64,000 bases of DNA from NCBI RefSeq assembly GCF_014196515.1, contig NZ_JACIDV010000006.1, positions 248,001 through 312,000 on the forward strand. Direction: 5' to 3'. Every line of letters starts with the position of its first letter. Position 1 is the first letter of the stretch. Below the pieces are notes generated by a model that saw nothing but the letters and a program-made list of their open reading frames with translations, was not told where the DNA came from and searched no databases. The translations under genes were made by a program, and so were the position numbers. Source of the stretch: Rhizobium skierniewicense. GTDB lineage: Bacteria > Pseudomonadota > Alphaproteobacteria > Rhizobiales > Rhizobiaceae. Below are positions 33,633-57,236 of this stretch, one piece after another.

Positions 33633-34517
33633 TTATTTTTGCTCGAGCAGTCGGCAAACGCTCTCCAGCTGCTCGAGTGTCCGGTAATTGATGCGGATAT
33701 GCCCACCGTTTCCCTTGTGGTTGATTTTCACATCCAGGCCCAGTGCATCGGACAGCGTACGCTCCAACGCAACGGTATCGGAGTCCTTCTCGTGCTCTTC
33801 TCTGCGCGGGAGCGTCGGATTGAGCTGCATATGAATATCGGCCTGTGCCATACGTTCTGCGTCACGAACCGACAACCCCTTCGCTACGATCGAGCGGGCG
33901 AGAAAGGTTGGATCCGACGTCGAAACAAGCGCACGCGCATGGCCGGCCGAAAGCGAACCCTCTGCCAGCATACCCCGCACGGCTTCCGGCAGCTTCAAAA
34001 GACGCAGGCTATTCGCGACGTGACTGCGGCTCTTGCCGATAATTTCCCCAAGATCGTTTTGCGTATATCCATGCTCGGCAATCAACTGATCGTAGCCCAT
34101 CGCTTCTTCAAGCGGGTTGAGATCGGAACGCTGAACGTTTTCGACAATAGCGAGCTCCAGCGCCGTGCGGTCGTCGACGTCACGGACAATGACGGGAACA
34201 TCCGTGAAGCCCGCGAGTTGTGCGGCTCGCCAGCGACGTTCACCGGCAATAATCTCATAGCGGCCTTCGGCCACCGTCCGCACAACGACAGGCTGAACGA
34301 TGCCGTGCTGACGAATAGAGGATGCGAGATCCTGTAACTCGCCTTCATCGAAATGTCTGCGCGGGTTGCGGGCGCTGCGCGCGATAAATTCAATCGGTAT
34401 CGTGCGGTCAGCCGCCACGGCTTTCTGCGGTTCACCGACAGGAAGAGGCTGGTCCATTTCACCGATCAATGCGGCGAGTCCGCGTCCCAGTCGACGCTTG
34501 GAAAGATCATCACTCAT
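33633..34517 (-). CDS. parB: Chromosome partitioning protein ParB
   Basis: ParB/Spo0J CTPase that loads at parS and spreads to segregate the origin; 294 residues. The N-terminal KRRLGRGLAALIG segment contacts ParA. The CTP-binding/catalytic region includes AGERRWRAAQ (91-100) and ENVQR (126-130). A helix-turn-helix lies at about 151-174 and a C-terminal dimerisation domain ends the protein. The ATG at 34517 has a GGAG 7 bases upstream. It is downstream of parA on the same strand. Five parS-like sites lie within 24 kb. Confidence 0.96.
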   Translation of the reverse strand: MSDDLSKRRLGRGLAALIGEMDQPLPVGEPQKAVAADRTIPIEFIARSARNPRRHFDEGELQDLASSIRQHGIVQPVVVRTVAEGRYEIIAGERRWRAAQLAGFTDVPVIVRDVDDRTALELAIVENVQRSDLNPLEEAMGYDQLIAEHGYTQNDLGEIIGKSRSHVANSLRLLKLPEAVRGMLAEGSLSAGHARALVSTSDPTFLARSIVAKGLSVRDAERMAQADIHMQLNPTLPRREEHEKDSDTVALERTLSDALGLDVKINHKGNGGHIRINYRTLEQLESVCRLLEQK

Positions 34518-34627
34518 TTTCAAACTCCGTAAAACCAATGAGGCATCGCACGAGAAAAGCCCGTTCAGACGCATGATGGAATGATAAGCGGTCCAAAGAC
34601 GCCGTTGAGAAAAATTTTTTGGTTGCG

Positions 34628-35419
34628 TCAGGCCGCTTTACGAATACGTTCGCGCTGGATGACTTCGGATGCCAATTGCAAATAGGCTTGGCTACCGGCG
34701 CATTTGAGGTCGTAGAGGATGGCAGGTTTACCATAGGACGGCGCTTCGGACACACGCACGTTGCGCGGAATGAGCGTGTGGTACACCTTTTCACCAAGAT
34801 GAGTGCGCACATCGGTGACGACCTGCTGCGCAAGATTATTGCGCGAATCGAACATCGTGAGGACGATGCCCTGGATATCGAGCCCTGGATTGACCGTCGC
34901 TCTGATTTGATTGACCGTATCCAGCAATTGACTCAGTCCTTCGAGAGCGAAGAATTCGCATTGCAACGGTACGAGCACCGAATGCGCAGCCGCCATCGCG
35001 TTCATCGTCAGCAAATTGAAGGAAGGCGGGCAATCCACGAGAATGTAGGAATAGGCTCGTGCTTCATCCGATTGAAGGGCATTCTTCAGCAGGAAAACAC
35101 GGTTCGCAGCATTAGCGACCTCCATCTCGAACCCCAGCAGGTCCATCGTGGACGCGATGATATCGAGGTTTGGAACCGCGGTCGGCACGACGACCTCCGA
35201 TACGGTATTCGTGCCAATCAATAGATCATAGGAGGACAGCGTGCGAGAACGCCTGTCGATGCCGAGACCTGTGCTGGCGTTGCCCTGTGGATCGAGGTCG
35301 ACCACCAGCACGCGCTCGCCTATGGCCGCCAGCGCGGTTGCCAGATTGATGGCAGTTGTCGTCTTACCGACCCCGCCTTTCTGGTTTGCAATCGTGATGA
35401 TCCGGTTTTTATCAAACAT
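34628..35419 (-). CDS. parA: Chromosome partitioning ATPase ParA
   Basis: Walker-type ATPase that drives origin movement with ParB; 263 residues. The deviant Walker A is KGGVGKTT (14-21), with LDPQGNAS (Walker A') and LVDCPPSFN (Walker B) following. The ATG at 35419 follows AGGTG; an in-frame GTG three codons earlier overlaps that site and is the alternative. It lies 20 bp after rsmG and 110 bp before parB. Confidence 0.96.
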   Translation of the reverse strand: MFDKNRIITIANQKGGVGKTTTAINLATALAAIGERVLVVDLDPQGNASTGLGIDRRSRTLSSYDLLIGTNTVSEVVVPTAVPNLDIIASTMDLLGFEMEVANAANRVFLLKNALQSDEARAYSYILVDCPPSFNLLTMNAMAAAHSVLVPLQCEFFALEGLSQLLDTVNQIRATVNPGLDIQGIVLTMFDSRNNLAQQVVTDVRTHLGEKVYHTLIPRNVRVSEAPSYGKPAILYDLKCAGSQAYLQLASEVIQRERIRKAA

Positions 35420-35439
35420 AGGGTGCACCTGCTGGTCAA

Positions 35440-36057
35440 TCAGCGTTTCGCTGCGAGCTGACTGATTTCAAGCACCACAGAACTCGCTTCAACGCTGCTA
35501 TTATGTATTAACAGATCAAAATCCCAACGACCACGCGCTTTTTCGAGCTCGGCCTCATAATCCCTGCCTTTATTCAGAAAACAGCGCAGGTCAACATTCT
35601 GGGCGGCCCAGGGCTCGATATAATCCAGGAGAAGATCAAGCTCGGCGAGAGCACGCGCGGAAATCACGTCACAGGGGCCGACGATGCCGTGCGCAGATTC
35701 GATCCGAACAGGATGCACCGAGCCACGAGCACCCGTTTCCTTGAGGGCAACTCGCAGGAAAGCAGCCTTTTTATTGTTGCTTTCGATGAGATTGACCCAT
35801 CCTTCCTTCAATTCAGCGAGAAAAATAGCAGTAATGATACCTGGAAATCCACCACCACTACCGAGGTCTGCCCATGTCAAAGGCTTCGGTGCCAACTGAA
35901 AGATTTGAGCACTATCGGCGATATGCCTTGACCAAAGGTCCCCAAGTGTAGACGGCGCCACGAGATTGGTCGTGGCATTCCATTTCCTGAAAAGTTCAAC
36001 GAAGTGTTCAAGACGATCCAATGTTTCACGTGAAACACTTCGGCCGTTTATGTTCAT
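35440..36057 (-). CDS. rsmG: 16S rRNA (guanine-527-N7)-methyltransferase RsmG
   Basis: SAM-dependent m7G527 methyltransferase (GidB), 205 residues. The SAM-binding loop [11 protein letters not shown] (around 65-75) and [14 protein letters not shown] are conserved. Codons 8-12 (VSRET) are encoded by a perfect parS palindrome. It is in the order mnmG-rsmG-parA-parB, 11 bp after mnmG. Confidence 0.96.
36022..36037. promoter_or_regulatory. parS site (perfect 16-bp palindrome) inside rsmG
   Basis: TGTTTCACGTGAAACA is a perfect palindrome and matches the bacterial ParB-binding consensus. It encodes residues 8-12 of RsmG and lies 1.5 kb upstream of parB. Confidence 0.93.
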
Positions 36058-40901: not shown

Positions 40902-41447
40902 TTATCCGAATGGTTTCACAACCACCAGTATGACAATGGCGATCATCAGAAGCGTTGGAGCCTCATTCATCAACCGCCAGTGACGGGCGGTACGCGTGTT
41001 CTCATCACGGGCAAAACGCTTGGCGCTGCGGCTGAAATAGACATGGGTCGCGGTCATCAGCACCACCAGCGCGATCTTCGCATGCAGCCAGCCACCCTGG
41101 AAACCATAAACCGACCAGGCGAGATAAAGCCCCAACACCCAGGAAATCATCATGGCAGGGTTCATGATGATCTTAATCAGACGTTGCTCCATCACCTTGA
41201 AGGTCTCGGACTTGTCCGAACCCGTCTCCGCATCGGTGTGGTATATGAAAAGCCGCGGCAAGTAGAACAACCCGGCCATCCAGGAGATGACGGCGATGAT
41301 ATGCAGCGCCTTGATCCAGAGATAGGCATCCGCGGGATCGGCATGCAGGACAGCGGCAATCAGTCCCACAAAAACTACAAGAGCGGCGCCCGCGCGCAAA
41401 CGCGCCTTGCGACCTGATGTGTCGGACGTCGCTTTTTCCCGTGTCAT
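40902..41447 (-). CDS. hemJ: HemJ-like protoporphyrinogen oxidase
   Basis: A 181-residue UPF0093/HemJ-type membrane protein, expected to oxidise protoporphyrinogen IX to protoporphyrin IX. Four hydrophobic helices are visible. The conserved His lies in [20 protein letters not shown] (His49) with the Arg of LPRLF following. Its ATG overlaps the hemE stop in an ATGA, which strongly supports a role in haem synthesis. Confidence 0.88.
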
Positions 41448-42478
41448 CGCCGCGCCTCATGAGATCGCACCCGCGCCACCAGTTTCGCTACATTTTCCGG
41501 ATCGGCCTGCGGCGTGATGCCATGGCCCAGATTAAAGATCAGTGGACCATTGCCAAGCTGTTCCAGGATCGTATCGATCCCGTCTTCCAGCGCCTTACCG
41601 CCAGCCACCATGCGCATCGGGTCCAGATTGCCCTGCACAGGCCCGTCTTTTTGAAGGTCACGGGCGAAGGAAAGCGGGATGCTCCAATCGAGGCCAATGG
41701 CATCAGCCTTGGTTTTCTGACGGTAATCTTTCAGCATAATACCGGCACCCTTGGCAAATGCGATGATCTTGGCGTCCGGCCGGCGAGCCCGAACGGACTG
41801 GATGATGCGCGCGACCGGCTTGATCGCATAATCTTCGAATTCCTTCTCACCCAGAACACCCGCCCAGGAGTCGAAAATCTGCACCGCATCGGCACCCGCA
41901 TCCAGCTGGGCTACGAGATAGTCGGCAGACACCTCCGCGAGAAACGCCAGCAGATGTTCCATAGCCTGCGGATGTTGGTAGCCAAACAGGCGCGCGGGCG
42001 CCTGGTCGGGTGTTCCGTGTCCGGCAATCATGTAGGTGGCGACCGTCCAGGGAGCGCCACAGAAGCCGAGCAGTGTGGTCTTGGACGGAAGTTCCGCCCT
42101 CAATCGTCTCACCGCCTCAAACACCGGTGCAAGATGCGGCAAGATATTATCGGCCTTCAGTGCCGAAATCTCATCCGTAGTAATCGGGTCCATTGCCGGA
42201 CCCCGCCCTTCGGTGAAGGTGACATTGCGATGGAGCGCGTCCGGGATCACGAGAATATCAGAAAACAGGATAGCCGCATCGAGTTCAAAGCGACGGATAG
42301 GCTGAAGCGTGACCTCCGTTGCCAGCGCAGGATTATAGCATAGGTCGAGGAAACTTCCCGCCACCTTCCGCGTTTCTCGATACTCCGGGAGATACCGACC
42401 CGCCTGCCTCATGAGCCAGATCGGAGGAGGGGTGAGTGTCTCCCCGCTCAATACCTTCAAAACGTTCCGTTCAGCCAT
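41444..42478 (-). CDS. hemE: Uroporphyrinogen decarboxylase HemE
   Basis: Decarboxylates the four acetate chains of uroporphyrinogen III to coproporphyrinogen III; 344 residues. The N-terminal [12 protein letters not shown] signature (residues 23-34), the second [14 protein letters not shown] motif and the C-terminal NLGHGI motif are present. It is next to the origin spacer, as in Caulobacter and other alphaproteobacteria, and is co-translated with hemJ. Confidence 0.97.
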
Positions 42479-42703
42479 CAGCCCATCTTTTCTAAAATAT
42501 AATAAAAGAGATTCTTAGAGATTTTCTATTTCTTAGAGTCTGTGAGTAGCAAGGATTAAATCCTGTCCGGCGGATATGCCGCATCCAGACAAAACCGGTC
42601 ACGGCGGTGGAATGATCAAACATAAGCTTGTCAACGATCGGGGGTAAAGACAAATTCACCAAATTTTTCAGTTTGTTAGATATTGATGGTGTCATCAACT
42701 TCC

Positions 42704-42712
42704 TGTGGATAA
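42704..42712 (-). promoter_or_regulatory. DnaA box in oriC
   Basis: TGTGGATAA, the complement of the consensus TTATCCACA. Confidence 0.85.
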
Positions 42713-42791
42713 ACGGTGCATGATTTTTAAGAGCTTTCCGTTCTCCTCACAATTCACAAGTCGCCTTCCGCTTGCTACACAAAAACCCGAT

Positions 42792-42800
42792 TGTGGATAA
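42792..42800 (-). promoter_or_regulatory. DnaA box in oriC
   Basis: A second perfect TGTGGATAA, 88 bp from the first and in the same orientation. Confidence 0.85.
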
Positions 42801-42859
42801 ACCGGCAGTTTTACACCGGCCGGTCCGCGGGCAAGGCTAACGCCACAGCTTGTCCAGTG

Positions 42860-42868
42860 TTATCAACA
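42860..42868 (+). promoter_or_regulatory. Near-consensus DnaA box in oriC
   Basis: TTATCAACA, one mismatch to TTATCCACA, in the opposite orientation to the two perfect boxes and 17 bp before the DUF299 start. Confidence 0.6.
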
Positions 42869-42884
42869 GGGAGCGGAAAACAGC

Positions 42885-43706
42885 GTGGAGAACACAAAAA
42901 GCTTCTTCCATCTTCATCTGATTTCTGACTCCACGGGCGAGACTCTCATGTCGGCGGGCAGGGCGGTGTCGGCCCAGTTTCACGCTGCCATGCCGCTGGA
43001 ACACGTTTATCCGATGATCAGAAACCAGAAACAGCTTCAGCAGGTGATAGACAGCATCGATAAAGAACCGGGTATCGTGCTCTACACAATCGTCGATGAG
43101 CATTTGGCGCAGTTCCTGGATCTCCAATGCCACGCGATCGGCGTTCCCTGCGTCAACGTGCTAGAACCGGTCATAGGCATTTTTCAGACCTATCTCGGCA
43201 CCACATCCAGGCGAAGGGTCGGAGCACAACATGCCCTGAATGCAGATTATTTTGCCCGTATAGAGGCCCTGAACTTCGCGATGGATCACGATGACGGGCA
43301 GATGCCGGAAAGTTATGAGGAGGCGGATGTCGTCCTTATCGGTATCAGCCGCACGTCGAAAACGCCCACCAGTATCTATCTCGCCAATCGTGGCGTCAAA
43401 ACCGCCAATATTCCCGTCGTGCCTGGCGTGCCTTTGCCGGAAAGTCTTTACAAGGCCACAAGGCCGCTGATCGTCGGACTGGTCGCGACGTCCGATCGAA
43501 TATCTCAGGTTCGCGAAAACCGCGAATTGGGGACAACAGGTGGTTTTGACCGCAGACAATATACAGACCGGGCGACCATCATGGAGGAGCTGAAATATGC
43601 CCGTGCGCTTTGCGCTCGCAATGATTGGCCACTGATTGACGTCACGCGCCGGTCTATCGAAGAGACAGCTGCCGCCATTCTTGCCCTTCGGCAAAGGACA
43701 CGTTAA
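42885..43706 (+). CDS. ppsR: DUF299 kinase/pyrophosphorylase (PPDK/PEP synthase regulator)
   Basis: A 273-residue bifunctional Ser/Thr kinase and Pi-dependent pyrophosphorylase that switches pyruvate phosphate dikinase or PEP synthase off and on. The N-terminal [12 protein letters not shown] and the P-loop-like [18 protein letters not shown] (around residues 152-169) are diagnostic. The start is a GTG with GGGAG upstream. Its position beside oriC opposite hemE is the conserved alphaproteobacterial one (RP001-type gene). Confidence 0.93.
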
Positions 43707-43738: not shown

Positions 43739-44338
43739 ATGAAACCGGACCTTATCCTTGCATCCACGAGTGCGTCCCGGCAGATGCTGATGCGCAATGC
43801 CGGTCTGACCTTCACGGCCCAGCCGGCCGATATCGACGAACGCGCCATAGACACGCGGTTGGTCAAAGACGGCGCTACGCCTGACCGTATCGCGGTGGAG
43901 CTGGCCAGGGCCAAGGCCCTTGCGGTCAGCGCAGCGCGACCGGACGCTTTCGTGCTTGGCTGTGACCAGACCATGTCGCTTGGATCACGCATTTATCACA
44001 AGCCGAAGGATATGACCGAGGCTCATGCCAATCTCATGTCCTTGTCTGGAAAAACGCATCGCCTGAACTGCGGTGCAGCGTTAGCGCATAAGGGAGCAGT
44101 CATCTGGGAAACCGTGACCTTTGCAGACTTGACCGTTCGCGCTTTGAGCAACGATTTCGTTGCGCGTCATCTCGAGCGCGTCGGATCGAACGTGCTATCG
44201 AGCGTTGGCGCCTATCAGCTGGAAGGGGAAGGCGTTCAGTTGTTCAGTGCGATAGAGGGCGACTATTTCACCATTCTCGGACTACCGCTTTTGCCTCTCT
44301 TAACAAAACTCCGCGACTTGGGCCTGATCGATGGTTGA
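43739..44338 (+). CDS. maf: Maf-family nucleoside triphosphate pyrophosphatase
   Basis: A 199-residue Maf/HAM1-type house-cleaning pyrophosphatase acting on non-canonical or canonical NTPs. The N-terminal [14 protein letters not shown] motif, DEAxx-type Asp/Glu region, VLGCDQTM and [15 protein letters not shown] match the YceF/Maf-1-like group. The ATG at 43739 follows a GGAG by 9 bases and is preferred over the TTG directly before it. It overlaps aroE by 8 bp. Confidence 0.93.
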
Positions 44339-45191
44339 TTCACGTGAAACATTAACCATCAAGGCCTTCGTTACAGGCTACCCGATTAAACATTCCCGAT
44401 CTCCGCTCATTCATCGCTATTGGCTCGAAGCTTTCGGTATCGGCGGTTCCTATGATGCGATAGCCGTTGCGCCTGAGATGTTTGAACATTTCATGACCGA
44501 TTTGAAGTCTGGCAAGAGCACATTTGTCGGTGGCAATGTCACAATACCCCACAAGGAATCCGCCTACCGATTGGCCGATAAGCCTGATGACGTCGCGCAA
44601 GAGCTGGGTGCCGCAAACACCCTGTGGTTGGAAGACGGTCAGCTTCACGCGACCAATACCGATGGCTATGGCTTCCTGTCCAATTTAGACGCCCGCTGCC
44701 CAGGCTGGGATAAGACGGACAGGGCAGTGGTTCTGGGCGCAGGCGGTGCCAGTCGTTCGGTTATTCAGGCGCTCTGCAATCGCGATATCGGTGAAATCAA
44801 TGTCGTCAACCGCACGATTGGTCGCGCAAAAGAATTGCGTAGCCGGTTTGGCGTGCGTGTCTTTGCCCATCCACTGGAAGCACTGCCGGAGGTTCTGGCC
44901 GGCGCAGGCCTGTTCGTCAACACGACCTCATTGGGAATGGATGGCGCAGAAGCACCGCAGATCGATTTTTCTGCCCTCCTGTCAAGTGCGATCGTGACGG
45001 ATGTGGTCTACGTTCCCTTGAACACACCGATCCTCAAAGCGGCGCAGAGCCACGGTTTCACAACCGTCGACGGCCTCGGTATGCTGCTCTATCAGGCAAA
45101 ACCTGGCTTTGAAAAATGGTTCGGCGAAGCACCTGACGTGAACGAAGAATTGCGAGCGATCATCATCGCCGACATGGACAAACACGCATGA
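44331..45191 (+). CDS. aroE: Shikimate dehydrogenase AroE
   Basis: NADPH-dependent reduction of 3-dehydroshikimate, 286 residues. The substrate site has [13 protein letters not shown] (16-28), the catalytic-Lys region NVTIPHKE, and the cofactor loop GAGGASRSV. Codons 3-7 (DSRET) are encoded by a parS-like site. It is in the maf-aroE-coaE-dnaQ series; the 3' end overlaps coaE by 4 nt. Confidence 0.96.
44336..44351. promoter_or_regulatory. parS-like site inside the aroE start
   Basis: TGATTCACGTGAAACA, one mismatch to the palindrome. It spans the end of maf and codons 2-7 of aroE, about 1.5 kb from oriC. Confidence 0.85.
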
Positions 45192-57220: not shown

Positions 57221-57236
57221 GGATTCACGTGAAACA
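57221..57236. promoter_or_regulatory. parS-like site between the YgjP-like gene and trpF
   Basis: GGATTCACGTGAAACA, two mismatches to the 16-bp palindrome and core TTCACGTGAAAC intact. It lies in the 103-bp spacer that must also carry the trpF promoter. Confidence 0.8.

Follow-up and report, generated by a model that had tools for sequence, protein, structure and literature searches.

A probable DnaA-dependent main-chromosome origin in the hemE/DUF299 spacer of a Rhizobiaceae genome

Locus, strand asymmetry, and partition genes

Does replication of the main chromosome begin in the short spacer between hemE and DUF299 in this Rhizobiaceae genome? The genome comprises 4.80 Mb in 33 contigs, and the window, the whole stretch of DNA analyzed here, is 64,000 nucleotides of the 348-kb contig C6 (C6:248001-312000). 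Because the HemE encoded there shares 92% identity with the protein of Agrobacterium rubi NBRC 13261, the genome was taken as an Agrobacterium near A. rubi. An earlier note had proposed the spacer as a chromosomal origin bordered by the same genes as Caulobacter Cori. The 406-bp spacer lies where it was described, at 42479-42884 between hemE and DUF299, and Pfam matches confirm both flanking genes at what is reported to be the Cori locus in Caulobacter (PMC1914354).

Features of the surrounding locus (window positions):
33633-34574, minus strand: parB (Pfam ParB_N, HTH_ParB, ParB_C)
34628-35428, minus strand: parA (Pfam AAA_31/CbiA)
36022-36037, no strand: perfect parS-like 16-mer, by consensus match
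37988 and 44336: parS-like copies, one mismatch each, by consensus match
41444-42478, minus strand: hemE (Pfam URO-D)
42479-42884, no strand: proposed oriC, the 406-bp hemE/DUF299 spacer (skew minimum 1.8 kb off, DnaA-box cluster, near-fixed length)
42885-43706, plus strand: DUF299 (COG1806), GTG start (Pfam Kinase-PPPase)
57221-57236: parS-like site with two mismatches, by consensus match, isolated, 14 kb right of the spacer

Left of the spacer the order is hemE, UPF0093, rho, mnmE, mnmG, rsmG (so named from a reading of its sequence only), parA, and parB; right of DUF299 are maf, aroE, coaE, and a dnaQ-like exonuclease gene. The hemE/DUF299 synteny is kept in 103 of 110 loci examined; among the usable upstream regions taken from other families and orders, 33 of 38 show it as well. 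The dnaA gene is on contig C7, away from the spacer. Four RepC-family matches on contigs C10, C15, and C18 fit secondary replicons with repABC origins, and the spacer would therefore serve the DnaA-dependent main chromosome. Two RepC-family genes lie less than 5 kb apart (C10:146205-146726 and C10:150911-151432). Contig ends recur ~57-58 kb past the DUF299 side of hemE in this genome and in many congeners; the shared assembly break suggests a common repeat, perhaps an rRNA operon at a guess.

GC skew changes sign near the spacer, as the earlier note had anticipated, and no refuting inflection was seen elsewhere on the sequences covered, which are our 348-kb contig (one of 33) and a contig of the congener G016. 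On the former, mean skew is -0.025 over the 290.5 kb left of the spacer and +0.017 over the 57.2 kb to its right. Its cumulative minimum falls at 44701, outside the spacer and 1.8 kb to the right, and the best single change point (the 44-kb bin) was equally strong in 1 of 2000 block permutations. The G016 contig (C1, 3.14 Mb) was sampled as 40 stretches of 20 kb and a contiguous 525 kb. Its cumulative minimum, at 2986610 (hemE is at 2989044-2990063), lies 3.5 kb away from the spacer, on the side opposite to that in our contig. The G016 maximum is near 1.3 Mb, with the exact opposite point at ~1.42 Mb, and a few single bins carry the opposite sign. The parAB genes lie on the same side as hemE, and the four parS-like sites were called with a 16-mer that we take to be the parS consensus.

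DnaA boxes and spacer architecture

Spacers were compared across 110 hemE loci (the window, 29 congeners, and 80 named relatives). Of these, 103 yielded a spacer, giving 100 distinct aligned rows (32 from Agrobacterium and 68 from elsewhere, which by their titles belong entirely or almost entirely to Rhizobiaceae) that share ancestry, so that row counts are non-independent. The seven loci without DUF299 in the fetched flank were excluded from the alignment. Five of them have a site upstream of hemE (15.3 to 23.1 bits) resembling the conserved block described in the next section; in L086 and L105 neither such a site within 1 kb upstream of hemE nor DUF299 in the fetched flank was seen, and their origin may have parted from hemE.

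Elements of the spacer outside the conserved block:
42488-42549, no strand: AT-rich candidate DNA unwinding element (DUE) adjoining the hemE start, low duplex stability
42666-42678, plus strand: IHF-like site TTTCAGTTTGTTA, ≤1 mismatch there in 24/32 Agrobacterium and 28/68 other rows
42704-42712, minus strand: DnaA box A, perfect TTATCCACA, ≤1 mismatch to TTATNCACA in 30/32 Agrobacterium and 34/68 other rows
42750-42758, plus strand: DnaA box C, CAATTCACA, ≤2 mismatches in 32/32 Agrobacterium and 49/68 other rows
42792-42800, minus strand: DnaA box B, perfect TTATCCACA, ≤1 mismatch in 32/32 Agrobacterium and 65/68 other rows
42860-42868, plus strand: DnaA box D, TTATCAACA, one mismatch; ≤2 mismatches in 32/32 Agrobacterium and 57/68 other rows

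Boxes A and B point toward hemE, and C and D point the opposite way. The two perfect boxes in one orientation, the near-box in the other (box D), and the AT-rich block (~42488-42550) that had been read from the sequence are thus all present. The genome holds 21 perfect DnaA boxes, for which ~0.036 pairs within 406 bp would be expected; the spacer pair is the only one, and no other 406-bp window of the 348-kb contig (50-bp steps) matches the box score of the spacer. The cluster exceeds chance. By instability, the AT-rich block is the third-ranked segment of the contig in 62-bp windows; its rank is fifth with 40-bp windows and seventh with 100-bp windows.

The IHF-like site was called with what is presumably the IHF consensus. 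A match with ≤1 mismatch occurs somewhere in 93 of 100 spacers and in 53 of 100 shuffled ones and is weakly informative. At its fixed place the putative site is kept with ≤1 mismatch in 52 of 100 rows, and this fixed position would be the better argument for it than the best match anywhere.

Distances between elements vary little. The spacer has a median length of 408 bp with a median absolute deviation (MAD) of 2 (range 384-521; 73 named relatives). The MAD is larger, at 8, 11, and 5, in three control spacers whose medians are 190, 84, and 30 bp; the fxsA/tim control likewise shows a MAD of 2 bp, but from three loci. The IHF-like site and box A are 37-39 bp apart in 94 of 100 rows, boxes C and B 42-43 bp in 83, boxes B and D 68-69 bp in 98, and box D and the DUF299 start 25 bp in 93. 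In eight rows boxes A and B are closer together by 11 or 13 bp, roughly one turn of the helix. Near-fixed length and spacings, with shifts by a helical turn, therefore suggest a nucleoprotein assembly.

We consider the main chromosome to have its DnaA-dependent origin (oriC, ori1 type) in the spacer, with a probability of about 0.94, because of the skew minima of our contig and of G016, the sole pair of perfect boxes, parAB with four parS-like sites, the fixed spacings, the low duplex stability, and the synteny. The proposal of the earlier note is thereby supported. Counting against it are the two skew minima being offset from the spacer (1.8 and 3.5 kb) and the position of dnaA on another contig. 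Judged by its layout, the spacer would be an ordinary alphaproteobacterial oriC of the hemE/DUF299 type, as expected from relatives.

The hemE-proximal block and its possible roles

All spacer features named in the earlier note were found, but its most constant element had not been singled out. The least variable sequence is a block at 42523-42558, on the hemE-proximal side at the edge of the AT-rich DUE. On the minus strand, from 42558 down to 42523, it reads TAATCCTTG, CTACTCACA, GACTCT, and AAG AAA TAG AAA.

Elements of the block and the second GANTC:
42510-42514, no strand: second GANTC, inside the DUE, at the same alignment place in 2/32 Agrobacterium rows
42523-42534, minus strand: A-centred triplets AAG AAA TAG AAA, NAN x4 in 100/100 aligned spacers
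42536-42540: invariant CcrM-type GANTC (GACTC on the minus strand) at the box/DUE junction, in 100/100 rows (97 GACTC, 3 GAGTC)
42541-42549, minus strand: weak DnaA-box-like CTACTCACA, three mismatches to TTATNCACA (1-4 across 100 rows)
42550-42558, minus strand: conserved TAATCCTTG, identical in 31/32 Agrobacterium and 37/68 other rows

The triplets are identical to the letter in 30/32 Agrobacterium rows and 27/68 others. With four mismatches to a DnaA box, TAATCCTTG is very weakly box-like, and it is IHF-like on the other strand. Letter for letter, the perfect boxes are more variable than the block; box B is nearly as constant once one mismatch to TTATNCACA is allowed (97 of 100 rows). When the contig was scanned with a matrix of the block, 42523-42558 alone scored above 12 bits.

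Both GANTC sites that had been claimed are present. Their number is at chance level (2 against a shuffle mean of 1.58, P(≥2) 0.47), unlike the retention of the 42536 site in 100/100 rows, which is beyond chance. In the hemE-proximal 90 nt, GANTC occurs 137 times against 19.7 in shuffles in other Rhizobiaceae (~7-fold; 69 without the invariant site) and 40 times against 9.0 in Agrobacterium (4.4-fold). Counts in the rest of the spacer are 144 against 81.8 in other Rhizobiaceae and 13 against 38.7 in Agrobacterium, a depletion. Observed/shuffled ratios in controls are 1.45 and 0.18 in two intergenic regions and 0.40 in the hemE coding sequence, and the control pattern GTNAC in the same 90 nt gave 31 against 19.6 in other Rhizobiaceae and 0 against 8.2 in Agrobacterium. 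Beyond the family, the proximal 140 nt of 21 upstream regions from other families in the order hold 31 against 9.8, and those of 17 regions from other orders hold 13 against 7.7, within the shuffles. As background, GANTC is reported to be over-represented in intergenic DNA generally (above 1.5-fold), with several in the Caulobacter origin (PMC3973325).

The sequence GASTCWWAGAAWNANAA is present once in our genome, within the spacer, and in 15 of 289 other genomes of the class. A reversed control was found in 22 class genomes, so the 15 matches look like chance and GASTCWWAGAAWNANAA was dropped as a class-wide motif; in the three of the 15 genomes with a hemE place listed, hemE is elsewhere, and the others have no hemE or no listed place for it. 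The exact block seems confined to Rhizobiaceae. The literature searched gave no description of an invariant GANTC/triplet block in Rhizobiaceae origins; an earlier study of replication initiation in S. meliloti (Sibley et al. 2006) may describe it. One locus titled Bacillus subtilis SK6B4 (L095, JAHREI010000001.1) has an alphaproteobacterial hemE (69% identical) and the same origin block, and its title therefore looks wrong.

What the block does is less settled than where it lies, and its GANTC letters may be kept for DnaA binding, for unwinding, or for the hemE promoter. That it is chiefly the hemE promoter, perhaps controlled by GcrA/CcrM through the GANTC and outside an unwinding machinery that works via the DnaA boxes and AT-rich stretch, we regard as unlikely. 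The block is directly upstream of hemE, a promoter-like match runs on the minus strand from 42528 to 42499 (9/12; shuffles average 0.5), and hemE transcription is described as bearing on replication in Caulobacter (PMC8959179). Against this, all 100 rows keep GACTCT and the A's of the triplets unchanged, unlike a promoter spacer, and the S. meliloti oriC intergenic region is reported to be untranscribed (PMC2245857). Promoter and terminator scans of the spacer were near chance.

More doubtful still is that the junction GANTC is a switch read by CcrM, its methylation state setting how easily DnaA opens the DNA and limiting firing to once per cycle. The 100/100 conservation and the proximal enrichment over control intergenic regions favor a switch; the GANTC-poor remainder of the Agrobacterium spacers, the rise of GTNAC in other Rhizobiaceae, and the other possible reasons for keeping these letters argue against it. 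A RAMA domain, the mark of CcrM, is encoded in our genome and in 61 of 61 relatives, which is consistent with a switch; no group without a RAMA match remains for a contrast by CcrM presence. Over-expression of CcrM is reported to give extra chromosome copies in Caulobacter, but cells without CcrM are described there as wild-type-like in DNA content (PMC3973325). In A. tumefaciens, CcrM depletion is reported to leave ori1 essentially unchanged and to delay ori2, with ~39% against 43% and 52% against 58% of cells having two ori1 foci (PMC11514494). Because published depletion or absence of CcrM left ori1 and DNA content nearly unchanged, the methylation switch is a hypothesis that runs against current data. 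Equally doubtful is the wider idea of a specialized melting module in the main-chromosome origins of Rhizobiaceae: a CcrM site would sit where the final weak DnaA box joins a strand with triplet phasing and anti-Bacillus polarity, and its methylation state would tune DnaA-driven melting after each round, a counterpart of Dam/SeqA control for origins that have no CtrA sites.

It is very improbable that the conserved spacer encodes a small RNA like CcnA, which is transcribed from the Caulobacter origin (PMC8959179): no Rfam match was found up to E 1, the authors did not clearly detect a CcnA homologue in S. meliloti, and the S. meliloti region gave no transcript in the study cited above (PMC2245857). 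A flanking origin, such as one in the maf-aroE segment close to the skew minimum (44701) and the parS-like site at 44336, is hardly credible: that segment is coding and has no DnaA-box cluster, and in G016 the minimum is found on the opposite side of the spacer.

Proposed opening and comparison with known origins

An origin in the spacer would fix the replication start of the main chromosome and give Rhizobiaceae origins a comparative anatomy of near-fixed DnaA-site spacing, no CtrA sites, and one most constant element. By analogy with known origins, DnaA would fill the stronger boxes, IHF or HU would bend the DNA between the boxes and the unwinding element, and ATP-DnaA would then reach the weak hemE-proximal box. 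The DNA would open within about 42488-42540, one strand would be held in triplet register, and helicases would load for both directions; the order of these steps is likewise taken by analogy. CtrA would have no direct action on the spacer, and CcrM would be predicted to methylate the junction GANTC. Should this invariant site have a part in opening, it would be relevant to how origins free of CtrA sites in Alphaproteobacteria are kept from firing twice.

The block resembles the basal unwinding system of Bacillus subtilis in having a box-like sequence, a short spacer, and A-centred triplets, with each middle A invariant here; against a threshold of three or more such triplets, four are present in 100/100 rows. 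It differs in polarity and in its box. The Bacillus trio strand is described as running 3' to 5' from the DnaA boxes (PMC6669920, PMC8235120, PMC10316083), the direction in which the filament extends on it, whereas the triplet strand here leaves the adjacent box in the 5' to 3' direction, and that box has three mismatches, above the limit of two set for a box beside the trios. Because the published polarity is opposite to that of the block, membership of the Bacillus type does not hold, and this candidate was dropped.

Box and triplet arrangements were also scanned outside the family, in 38 of 40 upstream regions fetched from other families and orders (L215 and L233, under 500 nt, were left out). 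Ten of the 38 regions (1.5 expected) have a box (≤2 mismatches) directed toward hemE together with four or more NAN on that strand, six at 92-135 nt and four at 226-342 nt from hemE; in 3 of 38 (0.9 expected) the NAN are on the opposite strand. The window's own box, with three mismatches, fails this two-mismatch test; with three allowed, the same-strand arrangement rises to 15 of 38 against 8.3, a weak excess. Canonical polarity in the 38 regions gave 3 (1.3 expected) and 3 (0.6) toward hemE and 1 (0.8) and 3 (1.0) away from it. Among 19 Rhizobiaceae representatives, several arrangements top expectation, including the favored one (5 against 0.5) and canonical polarity away from hemE (4 against 0.7).

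In E. coli oriC, a DUE lies by a box, with an IHF site and a methylation site. The spacer is alike in its DUE beside a box, an IHF-like site between boxes, and a methylation site in the DUE region, as in ssDUE recruitment and Dam/SeqA control (PMC10316083). The conserved methylation site in the opening region is here the GANTC at 42536-42540, and the methylase is of the CcrM rather than the Dam type. By reading, no TT[G/A]T(T), the motif of E. coli, lies on the plus strand of 42479-42540; the minus strand carries a TTATT at 42501-42505.

A. tumefaciens ori1 and S. meliloti oriC (SMc04880) are likewise DnaA-dependent main-chromosome origins (PMC11514494, PMC4433202), likened here by published description, with no difference known. 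As the earlier note had it, the spacer holds no TTAA-N7-TTAA, and even a loose TTWW-N7-TTWW is lacking, so that it differs in sequence from the Caulobacter control; TTAA-N7-TTAA is present in 2 of 100 aligned spacers. Missing CtrA control is not new, being already known for Sinorhizobium: the S. meliloti origin is described as without CtrA motifs and not bound by CtrA (PMC4433202), and abortus CtrA is reported not to bind the origin (PMC2877005). Caulobacter crescentus Cori is described with five CtrA sites and G-boxes TGATCCACA, where the spacer has no CtrA site and TTATCCACA boxes (PMC1914354, PMC4285127). Shared between the two are the hemE/DUF299 place, DnaA boxes, an AT-rich region, an IHF site (IHF-like here), and GANTC sites (PMC1914354, PMC4285127, PMC3973325).
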